From positions 1-36,851 of the forward strand of contig CALZIL010000003.1 of the NCBI GenBank assembly GCA_945787495.1: a stretch of 36,851 nucleotides of DNA, in the 5' to 3' direction. The position numbers and the translations under genes were made by a program. Each line of letters opens with the position of its first letter. Within the stretch, counting starts at the first letter, position 1. The DNA is from an uncultured Afifella sp. (GTDB lineage Bacteria > Pseudomonadota > Alphaproteobacteria > Rhizobiales > Afifellaceae). Below, one piece after another: positions 2,076 to 34,597 of this stretch. The notes beneath the pieces are model-generated. The model had not been told where the DNA came from. It searched no databases and saw only the letters and a program-made list of their open reading frames with translations.

Positions 2076-3757
2076 TGGCCTTCTCCCCCACCGGCCTTGG
2101 CAAGCCGCGACAGCGCTTCTGCCCGGAGCGACCCGGCAAGCGCATCGGCAGCCAGCCTCGCCTCCAGCTTTGCCGACCAGCCGGCCGATGCCTGCCGCGC
2201 TTCAGCCGGCAAGCCCTCCCAGGCGGTGCGCGCCGCTTTCAGGTTATTGCCCGTCAAGGCCTGCAGGACGGCACCGGTCTGGCGCATCAATTCGCCGCCC
2301 GCCGCCGGTCCGGCCTCGCGCACTTCGACAACATTGCGGGCACTCGCCATCAGCCGATCGACCAGCCCGGCACCTTCCGGCGCCGCCGGCCGCTCTGGTT
2401 CGGGCGGCAACATGGACGGGATCAGCGCTTCAAATTCCGCCGCCAGGACGGCCGCGTCAGGCAGTCCTTCTGCGGCATAGGCCGCAATCGCCGTCAAATC
2501 GGGTCCGCCATCCATACTCGATTGAAGAATCTGCAGCTCGGCAGCGAATGGACGACCAGCCGCCACGGCGGCCGCCAGGCTTTCCGCCGCCAGCGCCGAT
2601 TTCAACGCCGCAATTGATTGCGGCGATGCATTTTTATCGACCACGCCGGCAAGCTGCTCCACGCGCGTACCAAGCGCGGCAACAATTTGCGGGTCGATCT
2701 GCCCGCTCAATCCGCCCTCAAGCGTCTTGACGCGTTTGGTGAGTTCATCGGCGCTGGCGGCCAGCCGGTCGATCTCCGGCTTGACGGCGGCAGCGGCGTC
2801 GCTAGCAGTCTTACCGGCCAGAGCCTGAACAGCGGCGATCGATTCTTCCACGCCAGCGAGCTTTTGTTCGATTGCCGCAAGCCCGGCCTCCGGCCCGGCA
2901 GCGCCGGCCTGCACGGCCGATTCAAGCCCCGCAAGCCGCGCCTCCAGATCGCTCAAAGCTTGCGGTTGTTCGGCCTTGGCGATGCGCGCGCCTTGTTCGG
3001 CGAGCGAAGCCTCGATTTGCGTGATTTTTTCGCCCAGCGGTGCAAGGCCATCGGCGTCGGTCCCGCTTGTGGCAGGAAGCGCCGCAATCTGCGCCTGCAG
3101 ATCGGCGATCTGGCCGTCGGCTTCCTGTTTGACACCGGCGATTTGGGTTTGCAGGTCCGACAGACCCGGTTTGGCGCCGAAAATGGAGATCATCTGCAGC
3201 CGGTCCAGCGCCACGGCGCCGCCAAGCGCGATAATTCCCCCGGCAAAGGCAGCAACGAGCCGTGATGCCGCCGATGCTGAGGGCGACGATTTTTGTGATT
3301 CACGGGCGGTCGGCGGAACGGCGGATTGCGCCGGTCGGGCAGGTCCGGACTTCGAACCCACCGGCTCGCGATCAGGATGTCTGATCGCCGATGCGGCTTT
3401 TTTCGCGCCTCCGTCACCGCTAGCACCCGATTTCGTCGGCTCTTCGGCAATCTTGGCCGTATCAGCCGCCGCTCTGCCGCCCGCCGACTGTTTTTTGGCA
3501 GGCTGTCCCTTGGCAGCATCGGCCTTCAATGGCCCAGCCTTGACCGGCTCGCTGGCCATCTTTGACGGTTCCGGCTTTGACGAACTGGCGCTAGAGGAGG
3601 TCGATTGCGCCGGCTTCTTTGTCGCCTGGGCCGCCGGGCTGCTTTTCGTGCCGCCCTTGCTGACTTCCTCGGCATCGAGATCAATCGTCACGCCCTTGCG
3701 CCTGGCTTTAGACTGGCGCGGCCCGGTGCCTCGGCCGGAAGAGGGATCTTTCGCCAA
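2072..3757 (-). CDS. Alphaproteobacterial Mic60/mitofilin-like inner-membrane protein
   Basis: I place the start at a TTG at 3757, which has GGAG six bases upstream and gives 561 residues. An ATG at 3856 extends the frame but has no ribosome site. The protein has a Lys/Ala/Ser/Pro-rich, low-complexity cytoplasmic N-terminus (about 1-160) and one transmembrane helix (about 166-185). A long Ala/Glu/Gln-rich coiled-coil-like region with repeated 'IAxLxxQI' spacing follows, then a C-terminal helical domain of mitofilin type (about 430-561). Alphaproteobacterial Mic60 homologues lie beside hemC/hemD and are linked to inner-membrane invaginations and membrane contact sites; that role is transferred from the family. 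Position between hemD and hemY with a 4-nt overlap supports the call. The main alternative label is an 'uroporphyrin-III C-methyltransferase/HemX-like' annotation, which shares the same topology. Confidence 0.82.
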   Translation of the reverse strand: MAKDPSSGRGTGPRQSKARRKGVTIDLDAEEVSKGGTKSSPAAQATKKPAQSTSSSASSSKPEPSKMASEPVKAGPLKADAAKGQPAKKQSAGGRAAADTAKIAEEPTKSGASGDGGAKKAASAIRHPDREPVGSKSGPARPAQSAVPPTARESQKSSPSASAASRLVAAFAGGIIALGGAVALDRLQMISIFGAKPGLSDLQTQIAGVKQEADGQIADLQAQIAALPATSGTDADGLAPLGEKITQIEASLAEQGARIAKAEQPQALSDLEARLAGLESAVQAGAAGPEAGLAAIEQKLAGVEESIAAVQALAGKTASDAAAAVKPEIDRLAASADELTKRVKTLEGGLSGQIDPQIVAALGTRVEQLAGVVDKNASPQSIAALKSALAAESLAAAVAAGRPFAAELQILQSSMDGGPDLTAIAAYAAEGLPDAAVLAAEFEALIPSMLPPEPERPAAPEGAGLVDRLMASARNVVEVREAGPAAGGELMRQTGAVLQALTGNNLKAARTAWEGLPAEARQASAGWSAKLEARLAADALAGSLRAEALSRLAKAGGGEGQ

Positions 3758-5556: not shown

Positions 5557-5621
5557 GTTTTGAGTTCCCGATGATAGGAGCCAGTGATCTGAACCCGTAG
5601 AGAGTGGCGCGCTGAAGCGCA

Positions 5622-6728
5622 ATGGTTTCCTCCCGCTCCAGTTCAAAGCCGCTGACCGTTCTCGGCATCGAGACGAGTTGTGACGAGACTGCAGCCGCGA
5701 TCGTCACCCGCGCCAGTGACGGTAGTGGCATGATTCGGTCAAATATCGTCCTCAGCCAACTGACCGAACACGCCGCTTTTGGCGGCGTTGTGCCGGAAAT
5801 CGCCGCGCGCGCCCATGTCGAAGCGCTGGATGGCGTCATCGCTGCCGCCCTGCGCGAGGCCAAGGCCGGCTGGAATGATCTTGACGCCATAGCGGTCACC
5901 GCCGGACCGGGCCTGATCGGCGGTCTTCTCCTCGGCACGGTGACGGCGGCGGCGATTGCGGCGGCGCGCGGCCTTGCCTTGATGCCGATCAATCATCTGG
6001 AAGGCCATGCCCTGACAGCGACGCTGACTGACGGCCTGGCTTTTCCCTATCTGTTGCTGCTCGTCTCCGGTGGCCACAGCCAGTTTTTGCTGGTTGAGGG
6101 TGTCGGCCGCTACAAACGCCTTGGCACGACCATCGACGATGCGCTCGGCGAAGCTTTCGACAAGACCGCCAAGCTGCTTGGCTTGGCCTATCCCGGCGGC
6201 CCCAGCGTCGAGCTTTGCGCCAGGAACGGCGATCCTGAGCGCTTTGATCTGCCGCGGCCGCTCACGGGCACAGCCGGTTGCGATTTTTCGTTTTCCGGTT
6301 TGAAGACAGCCGTCCGGCAGGTGGCTGAGGCCAATGCGCCGCTATCGGACCAGGACCTCGCCGATTTGTGCGCCGGCTTCCAGATGGCGGTCGGCGACGT
6401 GCTGGAGGACCGCCTGCGCCATGCCGTCGCCGCCTGCCGTTCAGGCCCAAACGGACGCCCCGGCCATCTTGTCGCCGCCGGCGGTGTCGCCGCCAATCTT
6501 TATCTGCGCGAACGGCTTGAACAGGCTGCGGCGGCGCTTGGCCTGACATTCATCGCGCCGGCGCCGGACCTGTGCACCGACAATGCCGCCATGATCGCCT
6601 GGGCCGGGGTGTCGCGCCTTGTCGAAGGCTTTCCGGCGTCAGACAATATCGCAGCTCGGGCGCGTTGGCCGCTCGACGAGGCCGCCGAGCCGGTCATCGG
6701 CGCCGGGCGCAAGGGCGCGCGGGCATGA
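5622..6728 (+). CDS. tsaD: tRNA N6-adenosine threonylcarbamoyltransferase TsaD
   Basis: This 368-residue protein of the Kae1/TsaD/YgjD family opens with [16 protein letters not shown] (ASKHA nucleotide-binding fold). It has the metal-binding NHLEGH (His125 and His129), [26 protein letters not shown] and the C-terminal [12 protein letters not shown]. TsaD transfers threonylcarbamoyl from TC-AMP to A37 of ANN-decoding tRNAs, with TsaB and TsaE as partners; neither partner is in this window. The length is slightly above the usual 340-365, because about nine Ser-rich residues precede the conserved start. The ATG at 5622 has no clear ribosome site. It overlaps gpsA by 4 nt. The tRNA-Thr genes at both window ends decode ACG and would be substrates, but that proximity is probably chance. 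Confidence 0.96.
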
Positions 6729-27763: not shown

Positions 27764-28549
27764 ATGAAACTCGACAAATCGCTTGCCGCCATCGTCACCG
27801 GCGGCGCGTCCGGCCTTGGCGAAGCGAGCGCCCGCATGCTCGCCGGCCACGGCGTCAAGGTGGCGCTGTTCGACATGAACACTGAGCGCGGCGAAGCCGT
27901 CGCCGGCGAAATCGGCGGCCTCTTCTGCGCCGTTGATGTCACCGACGAGGCCAGCGTCGAGGCCGGTCTCCACAAGGCCCGGGCGGCGCATGGCACGGAA
28001 CGCATCCTGGTCAATTGCGCCGGCATCGTGATCGGCCGCAAGACGCTGTCGAGCGATCGCGAGACCGGTGCGTTGCGAGCCCACGATTTGGCCTCGTTCC
28101 GGCGCACGGTCGAGGTCAATCTGGTCGGCACCTACAATGTCATCACCAGATCGGCCTTGGCCATGGCGGCGGCCGAACCGCTTGATGACGATGGTGCACG
28201 CGGCGTCATCGTCTGCACATCCTCGGTCGCCGGGACTGAAGGCCAGATCGGCCAGGCCGCCTATGCCGCCTCCAAGGGCGGGATTCTCGGCCTGACCCTG
28301 CCGGTGGCGCGCGACCTGGCGCTATACGGTATCCGTGTCGTCACCATCCAGCCGGGCATTTTCGAGACGCCGATGTTCGATTCCATGCCCGACAAGGTCA
28401 GGGAGGCGCTCGCCGCCGGTGTGCCGTTTCCAAGCCGCCTCGGCCGGCCGGACGAATATGCCGACCTGGTGCACTACATCTGCGAAAGCGATTACGTCAA
28501 CGGCGCGGCGATCCGCCTCGACGGCGCCATCCGCCTGGCGCCGAAATAG
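27764..28549 (+). CDS. Short-chain dehydrogenase, 3-hydroxyacyl-CoA dehydrogenase type 2-like
   Basis: This 261-residue classical SDR has the nucleotide site TGGASGLGEA (residues 12-21), NCAGI, the catalytic Ser in 'CTSSVAGTEGQIGQ' and YAASK. 'ALFDMNTERGE' places an Asp after strand 2, which favours NAD over NADP. 'IQPGIFETPMFDSMPDKVRE' and the length match 3-hydroxy-2-methylbutyryl-CoA/3-hydroxyacyl-CoA dehydrogenases (HSD10-like), which act in isoleucine and branched fatty-acid breakdown. That substrate is inferred by similarity. GGAGG lies 6 bases upstream of the ATG. The GNAT gene follows after 13 nt. Confidence 0.9.
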   Translation: MKLDKSLAAIVTGGASGLGEASARMLAGHGVKVALFDMNTERGEAVAGEIGGLFCAVDVTDEASVEAGLHKARAAHGTERILVNCAGIVIGRKTLSSDRETGALRAHDLASFRRTVEVNLVGTYNVITRSALAMAAAEPLDDDGARGVIVCTSSVAGTEGQIGQAAYAASKGGILGLTLPVARDLALYGIRVVTIQPGIFETPMFDSMPDKVREALAAGVPFPSRLGRPDEYADLVHYICESDYVNGAAIRLDGAIRLAPK

Positions 28550-28562
28550 ATACCGGGATGAC

Positions 28563-29069
28563 ATGACCGCCATCCGTTCCGTTGTGCCGGCGGATCACGG
28601 CGCCCTCGATGCGGTGATCACGGCTGCCTTCGGCCAGCGGGACGAAGCCGATCTCGTCGAACGGCTGCGCAGGGACGGCGACGTTCTGTTCGAGCTGGCT
28701 GCGACGCACGACGACACTGTCGTTGGCCACATCCTTTTCAGCCGGCTGCCCATCATCCGCGACGACGGAAGCGTTATTGCGGCGGCCTCACTGGCGCCGC
28801 TCTGCGTCCGGCCGGACTGTCAGAACCAGGGCATCGGCGCCGATCTGATTGGCGCCGGGATGAACGAATGCCGGAAGCGCTGCATTCCAGCTGTTATCGT
28901 GCTCGGTGATCCGGATTATTACCAGCGTTTCGGCTTTTCTGCGGCAGCGGCAAGGCCGCTTGCGGCGCCGTTCTCGGGGCCGCACTTCATGGCGATCGAG
29001 TTCGACTCAGGCGTTCTTAAAGACGGCGGCAAGGTCCGCTATCCGGCCGCGTTCGGCCTGCCAGGCTGA
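28563..29069 (+). CDS. GNAT-family N-acetyltransferase (YhbS-like)
   Basis: The ATG at 28563 gives 168 residues; the longer frame upstream is the SDR gene in another frame. The GNAT fold is shown by 'IRSVVPADHGALDAVI', 'VVGHILFSRLPI' and the acetyl-CoA loop 'LAPLCVRPDCQNQGIGADLI' (Q-x-x-G-I-G). These are followed by 'VIVLGDPDYYQRFGF', which is typical of the YhbS-like subgroup. The substrate is unknown. It is 13 nt from the SDR gene and probably co-transcribed. It ends 81 nt before the LexA box of dnaE2. Confidence 0.9.
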   Translation: MTAIRSVVPADHGALDAVITAAFGQRDEADLVERLRRDGDVLFELAATHDDTVVGHILFSRLPIIRDDGSVIAAASLAPLCVRPDCQNQGIGADLIGAGMNECRKRCIPAVIVLGDPDYYQRFGFSAAAARPLAAPFSGPHFMAIEFDSGVLKDGGKVRYPAAFGLPG

Positions 29070-29150
29070 CCTCCGATCGTTCAAACCGCATAGCACAGCT
29101 TTTGGAGACGACTTGGTCCGACTCTCCTGGTTTGACTCTCGCCGCACTTA

Positions 29151-29165
29151 GAACATACCATGAAC
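29151..29165 (+). promoter_or_regulatory. LexA (SOS) box upstream of dnaE2
   Basis: The exact direct repeat GAAC-N7-GAAC (GAAC at 29151-29154 and 29162-29165; spacer ATACCAT) is the alphaproteobacterial LexA operator (GTTCN7GTTC on the other strand). It ends 27 nt before the dnaE2 start codon, where repression of an SOS gene would be expected. Confidence 0.85.
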
Positions 29166-29192
29166 ATTAGCACCTAACCCATCACCCATCCC

Positions 29193-32100
29193 ATGCCCGA
29201 CAAAAATCCGTATGACCAGCCCAGCCATTTTCTTTCCGGCAAGCGGCCGGAATCCGCCCCGGCAGACAACATCACGCAATTCCCCGAAGGCAGGCGGCGC
29301 CGTGCCAGACCGCCGGCGGAGGTCCCAGCCTATGCGGAGCTGCTCGCCGCCTCCAACTTTTCCTTTCTGCGCGGTGCCTCGCATCCCGAAGAACTGGCCA
29401 CTGCCGCCCGCAACCTTGGCCTTGCCGGCCTTGCCGTTGCTGACCGCAACACACTGGCCGGCGTCGTCCGCGCCCATGCCGCGGCAAAGGAAACAGCGCT
29501 GAAATCCGTCGTCGGCTGCCGCCTGGTCTTTGCCGACGGCACGCCCGACATCGCCGCCTGGGTCACCGACCGCGCCGCCTATGGCCGCCTGTGCCGGCTG
29601 TTGTCTGAAGGCAATCTGCGCACGCAAAAAGGCGATTGCCGCCTCACCCTCGCCGATCTTGTCAACTGGGGCAAGGGGCTGGAACTGGCCGTCCTGCCGG
29701 GCCGCCGGATCGCCGACAATCTGGCGCCAACTTTGCGCACCTTGCGCGCCGTCTTTGCCGGCTCGGTGCGGCTCGGCGCCACCTGTCTTTATCGCGGCGA
29801 CGACCGGCGGCAGCTTGCCGAATGCGCGGCGATCGCGACGGCAACGCAGGTGCCGCTGATCGCGCTCGGTGACGTGCTCTACCATACGCCGGCTCGGCGG
29901 CCCTTGCAGGATGTGCTCACCTGCATCCGCGAACATGTCACCCTCGATACCGCCGGCCGGCTCTTGGAAGCCAACGCCGAACGGCATCTGAAACCGTCGC
30001 CGAGACGCTTGCCGTTCTTGAGCGGCTCGGCTTTTCCCTTGACGAACTGCGCTACGAATACCCGGAAGAACCGGCCGGCCAGAGCGCCACACCCTTTGAC
30101 GAACTGACGCGCCTGACATTGGAAGGCGCCAGGGACCGCTATCGGCACGGCGTGCCGGACAAGGTGAAAAAAAGCCTCGACCATGAACTGGCGCTGATCC
30201 GCCAGCTCGATTACGCGCCGTATTTTCTGACCGTCTGGGACATTGTTCGTTTCGCCCGCTCTGAAGGCATTTTGTGCCAGGGCCGCGGTTCGGCGGCCAA
30301 TTCCGCCGTCTGTTACTGCCTCGGCATCACCGAGGTCGACCCGGACCGTTCCGATCTTCTGTTTGAGCGCTTCATCTCCGCCGAACGCCGCGAGCCGCCC
30401 GATATCGACGTCGACTTCGAGCATGCAAGGCGCGAGGAGGTGATCCAGTATGTCTATGACAAATACGGCCACGACCGCGCCGGCATCGCCGCCACCGTCA
30501 TCACCTATCGCTCCCGCTCCGCCAGCCGCGAGGTCGGCAAGGCCTTTGGTTTGTCGGAAGATGCGGTCTCGGCCCTGTCCGGCAATATCTGGGGCTGGTC
30601 GTCGACCGGCGTCGATGAGGCCGATGCCCGCCGCGCCGGACTGGATGCCGCCGATCCGCGCGTCGAAAAGGTGCTGGCGCTGACCCGGGAGATCATCGGC
30701 TTCCCGCGCCATCTCTCCCAGCATGTCGGCGGCTTTATCATCACCCGCGGCCGCCTCGACGAGGTCGTGCCGGTGCTCAATTCGGCCATGGACGGCCGCA
30801 CCATCATCGAATGGGACAAGGACGATCTCGATGCCGCCCTCGGCATCCTCAAGATCGACGTTCTGGCGCTCGGCATGCTGACCTGCATGAAAAAGGCGCT
30901 GAGCCTGCTTGACGATCACTATGGCGTCGAACTGAGCCTGGCCACCATTCCACCAGAGGATTGCGAGACCTACGACATGATCTGCCGCGCCGACACGATC
31001 GGCGTCTTCCAGATCGAAAGCCGCGCCCAGATGACCATGCTGCCGCGCTTGCGGCCGCGCAATTTCTACGACCTCGTCGTTGAGGTGGCGATCGTCCGGC
31101 CCGGCCCGATCCAGGGCGACATGGTGCATCCCTATCTCAAGCGCCGGCAGAACCCCAAGGCAATCCGCTATCCCGCCCCGGCGCCCGAACACGGAGCCCC
31201 TGACGAACTGGAACAGGTTCTCGGCAAGACACTCGGCGTGCCGCTGTTTCAGGAACAGGCCATGCAGATCGCCATCGTCGCCGCCAAATTCACGCCCGGC
31301 GAGGCCGACCGCCTGCGTCGCGCCATGGCGACCTTCCGCCACGTCGGCACCATCCACACCTTCCAGACCAAGATGGTCGACGGCATGATCGCCCGCGGCT
31401 ACGACCCGGACTTTGCCGAACGCTGCTTCCGCCAGATCGAGGGTTTTGGCGACTACGGCTTTCCCGAAAGCCATGCCGCCAGCTTCGCTCTGCTCGTCTA
31501 CACCTCCTCCTGGGTGAAATGCCATTACCCGGACATCTTCTGCGCCGCGCTCTTGAACGCCCAACCCATGGGCTTCTACGCCCCGGCCCAGATCGTCCGC
31601 GATGCCCGCGAACACGGCGTTGAAGTGCGCCCCGTCGACATCAACCATTCGGCCTGGGAGTCAACCCTGGAACCCGTCGATGAAAACGGCGAGAGCATCG
31701 CGAACCGTATCCATGCCCGCCATGGCGAACAGGCGCCATCGATCCGCACACACTCAGCCGTGCGGCTTGGCCTGCGCCAGATCAAGGGCCTGCGCGAGGC
31801 CGATGCGGAGCGGCTGGTCGCGGCGCGTGGCCCAATCAAGACCGGAAAGGCCGGCAAGGCCGGCTACAAAAGCGTCCGCGATCTGTGGCGGCGCTCCGGC
31901 CTTGTCCGCGCCAGCCTGGAACGATTGGCCGACGCTGACGCCTTCCACTCCATCGGCCTGAACCGCCGCGAGGCGCTCTGGCAGGTGCGGGCGCTGAACG
32001 AAGCCGGCGCCGCCGAGCGCCTGCCCCTCTTTGATGGTCATGATGATGGCGGGGCCGATGATCTTGTGCGCGAGGCACCGGTGGCGCTGCCGGAAATGCC

Positions 32101-32689
32101 GCTCGGCGAACATGTGGTCAACGATTACCGGGCCTTGAAACTGTCCCTGAAGGGTCACCCGGTCTCATTCGTGCGCGATGAACTGACGGCGATGGGCATC
32201 GCCAAAGCCGAACGGCTGGCGGATTGGCCGAACGGTCGGCGGATCCGCGTCGCCGGTCTGGTGCTGGTGCGCCAGCGCCCCGGCTCGGCCAAGGGCGTCA
32301 TCTTCGCCACGCTGGAGGACGAAACCGGCATCGCCAATGTCATCGTCTGGCCGAAGACTTTCGAGCGCTACCGGCCAGTCGTCATCGGCGCCCGTTTCAT
32401 CGCCGTGACCGGCCGTGTCCAGTCTGCACAGGGCGTCATCCATGTCGTCGCCGAGGCGCTGGAGGACCTGACGCCGCTGCTTGCCCGGCTGTCGGACGAC
32501 TCGATCGGTGAAGGCGCCCTGGCCCGCGCCGACGAGGTGTGTCGGCCGATTGAGGACAGGCGCGAGAAATTCAGACCGCACTCGCGCCTTGCCGATCTGC
32601 TGAAGGAAGCCCCTGAACTGACCGCCGATCTGCAACGCCTCGCCCGCGCCGCCGGCAAGGTCATGCCCAAGGGCCGCAACTTTCACTGA
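29193..32689 (+). pseudogene. dnaE2: Error-prone DNA polymerase DnaE2 (ImuC), broken by a frameshifting deletion
   Basis: Two abutting frames together encode a DnaE2. The first (29193 to about 29993, residues 1-267) holds the PHP domain ('AYAELLAASNFSFLRGASHPEEL') and ends in EANAERHLK. It then runs 37 residues in a wrong frame to a stop at 30107. The second frame resumes at 29990 ([20 protein letters not shown]) and continues about 899 residues to 32689. It keeps the polymerase acidic motif [16 protein letters not shown], '[14 protein letters not shown]' and a C-terminal OB domain. Compared with family members I remember, about 13 residues (a P-A-E-M-A-R-L-F-like helix) are missing at the joint, so about 40 nt were probably lost rather than one base. 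Both halves are otherwise free of stops. An SOS box precedes it, but imuA and imuB are not adjacent. An assembly error cannot be excluded. Confidence 0.88.
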
Positions 32690-32702: not shown

Positions 32703-33026
32703 CTATTTCAGGCTGCCGATATAGGCGACGAGATCGCGGATCTCCTGCCGCGTCAGGCTCATCTCCGGCATCACCGGATGCGGATCGGCGAGAAAGCCTT
32801 CCAGCGCCACCAGAGCGCTTGGCGTTGCCCGCATTTGTGCGATCGTCATGAAACTCGGCGCATCGGCGCTCGCCGTCGTCTGCTCGGCGCTGACCTGATG
32901 ACAGGCGGCGCACCAGCGCTGGGCGATTGCCTTGCCTTGCTCAGGCCGGCTCGCCGCCAACGACGAACCGCCCACCAGCACCAGCAGCGCCGCAACCATC
33001 GCGATACGACCGGCTAGAACACGCAT
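32703..33026 (-). CDS. Small periplasmic class I cytochrome c
   Basis: This 107-residue protein has a Sec signal peptide (about 1-25, ending SLAAS). The mature domain has one haem site CAACH (Cys39, Cys42, His43). The likely axial methionine is in 'HPVMPEMSLTRQEI', followed by the C-terminal helix 'IRDLVAYIGSLK', typical of small monohaem electron carriers. GAGG lies about 7 bases before the ATG. An FNR/FixK-type box is centred about 56 nt upstream of the start codon. The gene is convergent with dnaE2 (13-nt gap) and downstream of gnd. Its redox partners are unknown. Confidence 0.9.
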   Translation of the reverse strand: MRVLAGRIAMVAALLVLVGGSSLAASRPEQGKAIAQRWCAACHQVSAEQTTASADAPSFMTIAQMRATPSALVALEGFLADPHPVMPEMSLTRQEIRDLVAYIGSLK

Positions 33027-33116: not shown

Positions 33117-34541
33117 TCACGCGTCGGTTCCGCCCCAAGGTCCGTGGTGATCGCCATCACGATCGGTGCGCTTGAAACTGTGGGCGCCAAAAAAGTCGCG
33201 TTGCGCCTGAATCATCGCCGCCGATGAGCGGCCCTGCCGCATGCCGTCGAAATAGGCGAGCGCCGAGCATTGGGCCGGCGCCGGAATGCCTTGAGCAAGC
33301 GCCAGCGCTGCGGTTTTCCGCATGGCCTCGTGCGAGTGGATCATCATGCCGGCAAGATCGGTGGCGGTGAACAGGTTGGGCAGATTCGGCGTTTCGGCGA
33401 AAGCGGCCGCGATCGGATTGAGGAGCCGCGAGCGGATGATGCAGCCGGCCCGCCAGATGCGGGCGATCGTCGACAGCGGCAAGTCCCAGCCATAGGTTTG
33501 CGACGCCCCGGCCATCAGCCCGAAACCCTGCGCGTACATCGCGATCCGGCCGCCAAGCAGAGCGCCCTCCAGCATGGCGATCACCGCGTCGTCGATCGGT
33601 TTCCCGGACGGCCGATCAATGGTTTGATAAAGCGCTTCGGTCGCCAGCCGGTCGGCCTTGCGCGCCGAGATCACTCGCGCGACAACCGCTGCGTCGATCG
33701 AGGGCGCCGGCAGCCCGAGCTGCAGCGCCTCGATCGCCGTCCAGCGGCCGGTGCCTTTCTGGCCGGCTTTATCGACAATGACATCGATGATCGGACCGCC
33801 GCTGGCCGCATCTTCGGTGGCGAGGATCGCCGCCGTGATCTCGACCAGATAGGATTCAAGCGGTCCCTGGTTCCATTGCCCGAAGACGTCGCCGATATCG
33901 GCCGGGCGCATGGCAAACGCTGTCCGCATAATCTCGTAAATTTCGGCGATCAGCTGCATTTCGGCATATTCGATGCCGTTATGGACACTCTTGACGAAAT
34001 GCCCGGCACCATCCGCACCGAGCCAGGCGGCGCACGGCTCACCGTCATATTCGGCGGCAATGGCGTTCAGGATCGGTTCGACACGCTGAAAAGCCTCGCG
34101 CGGTCCGCCAGCCATGATCGAGGGTCCGCGCCGCGCGCCCTCCTCGCCGCCGGAAACGCCAACGCCGAGATAGGCGAACCCGGCCTCTTTCAGCGCCGCA
34201 GAACGGCGGATCGTATTGTGGAAATTGGCATTGCCGGCATCGATCGGAATATCGCCGGGCTCAAGGTGCGGGCGCATGGCGGCGATCAGTTCGTCGACCG
34301 GATCGCCGGCCTTGACCATCATCACGATCGGCCGTGGCGGCCGGATCGCCGCAACGAGCTCGGCCAGCGACCGGCATCCGGTCAGGCCGCCATCGTTGCC
34401 GGAAAAGCCGCCAACGACATCGTCGGTAACTGATTGTGTGCGATTATGGACGGCGACCCGGTAGCCATGATCGGCCATGTTGAGCGCCAGGTTGCGCCCC
34501 ATGACGCCGAGCCCAATCAGGCCGATATCAGCGCCGCTCAC
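33117..34541 (-). CDS. gnd: 6-phosphogluconate dehydrogenase (decarboxylating)
   Basis: I place the start at the GTG at 34541, with GGGAG 6 bases upstream, giving 474 residues, the normal length. The ATG at 34571 would add ten residues without a site. The N-terminal NADP domain has IGLIGLGVMGRNLALNMADH, and 'VAVHNRT' places the NADP-phosphate-binding Asn-Arg-Thr. The substrate site includes 'GVGVSGGEEGARRGPSIMAGG', 'GHFVKSVHNGIEYAEMQLI' (catalytic Lys) and 'KAGQKGTGRWT'. It oxidises 6-phosphogluconate to ribulose 5-phosphate, CO2 and NADPH. No zwf or pgl lies nearby. It is preceded on the same strand by the amidase gene (56 nt gap). Confidence 0.97.
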   Translation of the reverse strand: MSGADIGLIGLGVMGRNLALNMADHGYRVAVHNRTQSVTDDVVGGFSGNDGGLTGCRSLAELVAAIRPPRPIVMMVKAGDPVDELIAAMRPHLEPGDIPIDAGNANFHNTIRRSAALKEAGFAYLGVGVSGGEEGARRGPSIMAGGPREAFQRVEPILNAIAAEYDGEPCAAWLGADGAGHFVKSVHNGIEYAEMQLIAEIYEIMRTAFAMRPADIGDVFGQWNQGPLESYLVEITAAILATEDAASGGPIIDVIVDKAGQKGTGRWTAIEALQLGLPAPSIDAAVVARVISARKADRLATEALYQTIDRPSGKPIDDAVIAMLEGALLGGRIAMYAQGFGLMAGASQTYGWDLPLSTIARIWRAGCIIRSRLLNPIAAAFAETPNLPNLFTATDLAGMMIHSHEAMRKTAALALAQGIPAPAQCSALAYFDGMRQGRSSAAMIQAQRDFFGAHSFKRTDRDGDHHGPWGGTDA

Positions 34542-34597
34542 TGAAGGCTCCCATTCACCTGCATAAAACATTCCGGGCAGCGGCAGACAATCGCACG

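Follow-up and report, generated by a model that had tools for sequence, protein, structure and literature searches.

A LexA-boxed imuA-imuB-dnaE2 cassette split between two loci in Afifella and related genera, with a 43-nt deletion in one dnaE2 gene

The stretch of DNA analysed here (the window; 36,851 nt from an uncultured Afifella sp.) carries a dnaE2 gene that is read in two frames. Its N-terminal piece (29193-30107, + strand) comprises a ~45-residue N-terminal extension and the PHP domain, and its C-terminal piece (30119-32689, + strand) is an 856-aa open frame that contains the motif PDIDVDF and no internal stop. The upstream neighbours named in the initial annotation are both in place: a GNAT-like acetyltransferase ORF (28563-29069, + strand), which has weak N-acetyltransferase matches below the cut-offs and stands outside the cassette, and a gene for an SDR family oxidoreductase (27764-28549, + strand). 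Convergent to dnaE2 is a small gene that we read from its sequence as cytochrome-c-like (32703-33026, - strand). The LexA-type operator GAAC-N7-GAAC (GAACATACCATGAAC; 29151-29165, + strand) ends 27 nt before the dnaE2 ATG at 29193, exactly where the initial annotation had put it. A -35-like hexamer, TTGACT (29132-29137, + strand), lies 13 nt from this box, and the predicted -10 hexamer, TACCAT (29156-29161, + strand), falls inside it. The promoter-like site that overlaps the box is the one such site in 28900-29400, against 0.1 expected in shuffled sequence. LexA would presumably bind here.

The draft genome to which the window belongs (432 contigs, 95% complete) was searched for ImuA and ImuB with the proteins of Rhizobium sp. 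NLR16a as queries. The initial annotation had described imuA and imuB as absent and had considered that they were lost. They are indeed missing from the window, but an intact pair lies on another contig of the same genome, C230, where imuB (565-2253, - strand; E 1e-128) and imuA (2297-3172, - strand; E 1.4e-25 to the ImuA-position protein of NLR16a) are both open frames. ImuA gave no Pfam match. ImuB has an IMS domain and the word RPLKLFERPE, which we take to be a site of the type used for beta-clamp binding. The Y-family model PF00817 matched this ImuB and one protein on contig C78 that we read as DinB. A LexA-type box, GAACAAAGATAGAAC, precedes imuA with 23 nt between the box end and the ATG, so that each transcription unit, dnaE2 and imuA, has an operator of its own. 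The genome also encodes LexA, on contig C124, with a family match above the cut-off and a box upstream of the gene.

The three genes do not form a contiguous operon, dnaE2 being on contig C3 and imuAB on C230, with other genes flanking each. Because imuA and imuB stand with their own box on another contig, the cassette is split, which was one of the two readings offered initially and is supported also by the relatives described below. A further suggestion, that the window gene might be the decayed paralogue of a complete dnaE2 in operon with imuAB, found no counterpart in the assembly. The gene 3' of imuB on C230 is convergent and is not dnaE2; we read it as pterin-4a-carbinolamine dehydratase. 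A DnaE search of the genome returned one DnaE2 and one DnaE relative of 36% identity on contig C209, read as the replicative dnaE1. No second complete dnaE2 with imuAB was found in this genome, and its draft state leaves some room for a missed copy.

We searched 81 genomes and found DnaE2 in 63 and ImuB in 62 at the thresholds used; 62 have both and one (G026) has DnaE2 alone. By coordinates, the two genes are linked on one contig in 55 of the 62 (G056 being assigned by inspection) and occupy split loci in six, namely the window's genome (G000), G001, G002, G003, G005 and G006, which represent five genera of one family. An apparent split in G056 was rejected, as imuB is followed by dnaE2 on L227, and one in G019 was set aside, dnaE2 and imuB each lying near a contig end. 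The split genomes are drafts, and the dnaE2 of G005 has about 0.5 kb of upstream sequence before its contig ends; the imuB of this genome lies inside a contig without dnaE2. Genus g5 of the same family, represented by five genomes, has only linked cassettes. In G001 the split cassette is accompanied by another one of the genus g5 type, in which imuB and dnaE2 are linked (L192, G001:C185).

In quick-search trees of DnaE2 (37 rows) and of ImuB (25 rows), the rows of the six split genomes fall together as a single clade inside the linked forms, in each case with an SH-aLRT of 99. The trees also group G078 with Mesorhizobium amorphae, with full support in both, and as G078 belongs to the same order as the window's genome, we take that order to be Hyphomicrobiales. 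The grouping of the ImuB from C230 with that of the family's other split genomes argues against this contig being a contaminant. Gene order points the same way as the trees: YkvA-like, invasin-like and rlmN genes upstream of dnaE2 are common to G000, G003 and G006, and a pterin dehydratase gene follows imuB in G000 and G005. The SDR gene separates dnaE2 from the YkvA-like gene in the window's genome but not in G003 or G006. All six split-clade DnaE2 proteins start ~45 residues earlier (MP[DE][KQ]...) than the linked ones. In linked loci such as that of G050, 15 nt separate the end of imuB from residue 46 of dnaE2, leaving no room for a 45-residue extension. In the DnaE2 of G006 (L185, G006:C12), repeat-like sequence is inserted in frame at a place where the closely related G003 has none. 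The trees and the neighbouring genes show the split to be inherited and old in this family, dating from an ancestor of the five-genus clade. The cytochrome-c-like gene is found 3' of dnaE2 also in G001 (split; 60% identity) and in G080 (linked; 41% identity), and so it would seem to mark the old site of the cassette. The G080 neighbour, at 41% identity, is a weak hint that it was imuAB that moved, dnaE2 keeping its place.

The dnaE2 lesion is confined to the window's genome among the six split genomes. In a nucleotide alignment, the gene lacks 43 nt that each of the five split-cassette relatives has, with the junction at 29990-30000 (+ strand). The loss shows as a gap at the protein level as well, and the frame changes at about 29997; the aligned reading of the N-terminal piece stops near this point and gives way to out-of-frame residues and a stop codon. 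By Pfam, the first piece contains the PHP domain (residues 54-145) and the second contains the polymerase NTPase, finger, HHH and OB domains, so that the lesion lies between the PHP match and the polymerase core. The C-terminal piece alone scores 1176 bits against NF004225 (error-prone DNA polymerase), well above the 939-bit cut-off. In the five relatives, the lone dnaE2 is uninterrupted over the fetched length, that of G003 running off its contig. This assembly therefore holds no intact, expressible dnaE2, and the mutasome polymerase is probably inactive in the window's genome unless the deletion is an assembly error. The decay that the initial annotation suspected is thus borne out in so far as the gene lies in two frames, but the cause that it proposed is not: imuA and imuB are present, and their loss cannot account for the lesion.

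The two pieces themselves bear no apparent sign of long decay. In pairs that include the window's gene, dN/dS is 0.28-0.33 for the first part and 0.20-0.25 for the second, as against 0.20-0.42 and 0.19-0.27 in pairs of intact relatives, synonymous sites being near saturation in most pairs. The end branch of the window's gene in the DnaE2 tree is shorter than that of its sister (0.18 and 0.25). A very recent pseudogene and an assembly error would fit these values equally well.

We accordingly see an appreciable chance, somewhat short of even, that the gene is intact in the organism and that the break arose in sequencing or assembly. The deletion is known from a single draft assembly of many contigs; both pieces show normal constraint with no further stop, the branch is not lengthened, and all five split-cassette relatives read through the lesion site. 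Set against this, a clean 43-nt deletion is unlike the usual base-calling error, and a fresh, real deletion would look alike. It is much less likely, indeed very unlikely, that both pieces are made and work as a two-piece polymerase, with the C-terminal piece restarted at the TTG at 30119, 11 nt after the first stop of dnaE2. This piece does contain all the polymerase domains and is under normal constraint. However, the break has cost 14 residues, inspection by eye shows no clear ribosome-binding site before 30119, and the PHP domain is modelled as the main contact with ImuB (PMC12926913). Nor does a programmed frameshift help, since neither of the two XXXYYYZ heptamers in the frame overlap is convincing and no canonical in-phase heptamer is evident.

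The number of GAACN7GAAC matches says little about the box before dnaE2. Two matches occur in the window where shuffling predicts 1.04, which is not significant, and we take the second (34065-34079, - strand), inside the open frame 33117-34571, to be due to chance. The whole genome has 82, compared with 93 for a reversed-pattern control. With the count at control level, enrichment was set aside as evidence and single sites prove little; what gives the window box weight is where it stands and how it is conserved. A 60-nt stretch would be expected to contain about 0.0013 matches at the density seen in the genome. An exact box stands before the lone dnaE2 in all six split genomes, 23-59 nt from the ATG, and before imuA it is exact in five of the six, that of G001 having one mismatch.

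We then surveyed 96 loci for a box within 300 nt upstream of dnaE2 residue 46. Left out were two loci without an N-terminal match, six with short upstream sequence and nine in which imuB lies upstream with a gap of > 400 nt; the last group has a box before dnaE2 in none of the nine. Among the 79 classed loci, 70 linked and nine unlinked, the box was found in 8/9 unlinked and 2/70 linked loci (Fisher p 1.5e-8, a value that is overstated because six of the nine unlinked loci are one clade, the contrast resting on about three independent events). The unlinked locus without a box is L172, and at L162 the box is on the opposite strand. L154 and L162, on named MAG contigs titled Rhodospirillales, have a boxed dnaE2 and no imuB in the fetched upstream sequence; they may be independent splits. 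At one linked locus (L208, G079:C7), imuB apparently has a ~470-nt insertion near its 3' end, at about 5594-6061, and a GAACN7GAAC inside this insertion stands about 230 nt ahead of residue 46 of dnaE2.

The two kinds of promoter differ in build. The distance from TTGACT to the box at the lone dnaE2 genes is 13, 13, 13, 14, 14 and 17 nt, the last in G005, where another TTGACT lies at 29 nt; for imuA in these split genomes it is 23-28 nt. Elsewhere, we looked at 69 imuA loci, 41 with an exact box by the distance rule and 28 with none, so that the motif is not universal before imuA. TTGAC/T is present in 39 of the 41 boxed loci and lies at 23-27 nt in 34 of these 39, the remaining five being at 13, 14, 14, 19 and 19 nt. 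This difference in spacing puts the operator on the -10 region at the lone dnaE2 and further downstream at imuA. Transplantation of the imuA promoter to dnaE2 was considered as well and is not favoured by the spacing within the family. The lone dnaE2 of L154, with a spacing of 29 nt, resembles an imuA promoter.

These results bear on whether the box before dnaE2 is a chance match, dnaE2 being constitutive or read from the GNAT and SDR genes. Although the genome count is at control level and dnaE2 is codirectional with both genes, the box is equally placed in 6/6 split genomes, G003 and G006 among them with different upstream genes, and it overlaps a promoter-like site; we regard a chance match as highly improbable. 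Hardly any weight can be given to the proposal that imuA and imuB were lost and that dnaE2 decays without its partners, in favour of which there is nothing beyond the broken frame and the lack of imuAB in the window, given that both genes are present elsewhere in the genome as open frames with a LexA box and that the lone dnaE2 is uninterrupted in five relatives.

Small LexA-boxed ORFs were met in passing. At L069 (G000:C209), on the upstream side of the dnaE1-like gene, a GAACN7GAAC at 2144-2158 stands just before a 30-aa ORF (2176-2268) that has a single hydrophobic stretch (MTWLMREMVSFASVSVFIASLALWACGLAG). In size and putative control this ORF is similar to SidA, the 29-aa SOS division inhibitor of Caulobacter (PMC4211646). 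A LexA-boxed 32-aa ORF, MN[MI]FASELLSFAATVVLTASLYVLSLG[LM]FAPL, occurs in three genus g5 genomes (L223, L224 and L225, in G008, G007 and G004 respectively) and possibly encodes the same kind of small membrane protein.

We conclude that, with high probability, the imuA-imuB-dnaE2 cassette was split in the ancestor of the five-genus clade, its parts coming under separate LexA promoters, and that the dnaE2 of the window has since suffered a 43-nt deletion. dnaE2, which either kept its place or was relocated, stands alone behind a promoter that LexA would repress from an operator over the -10 region; imuA-imuB lie elsewhere, under the usual imuA-type LexA promoter. DNA damage would then derepress both loci jointly, and the three proteins would assemble in trans. 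The later deletion and frameshift behind the PHP domain would have cost the window's genome its DnaE2 function. We suggest more tentatively, and think it rather unlikely, that the differing promoter builds give unequal strength or timing of induction, and that in the window's species the polymerase half was knocked out very recently, the loader half being kept. The clade would provide a dated example of a mutagenesis operon that was split with both halves still under LexA, in keeping with the idea that selection favours joint SOS control even where linkage is lost. If the lesion is real, the mutasome polymerase has been knocked out naturally in the window's species, in which imuAB are retained.

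The contiguous imuABC cassettes of Alphaproteobacteria such as Rhizobium and Mesorhizobium encode the same three proteins and have a GAACN7GAAC operator before imuA, whereas in the present case dnaE2 has its own locus and a second operator. Caulobacter likewise has a contiguous imuA-imuB-dnaE2 cassette. According to published reports, dnaE2 typically occurs in a LexA-regulated cassette that is contiguous or split (PMC3919608), and in Mycobacterium tuberculosis imuC (dnaE2) is apart from imuA'-imuB, lone imuC genes being reported elsewhere too (PMC3901139). Phylum, LexA motif and ImuA type differ from those of M. tuberculosis, and the split described here is a local event in the Hyphomicrobiales, nested among linked cassettes. 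The DnaE2B and DnaE2X systems resemble it in having dnaE2 without linked imuAB, but their genomes are described as being without imuA and imuB (PMC12926913), both of which the window's genome has. A small literature search found no published account of this clade's split. Split LexA-controlled cassettes are already known, and the present one is of the ordinary kind, cleanly shown; its noteworthy details are the build of the promoter at the lone dnaE2 and the fresh lesion in that gene.
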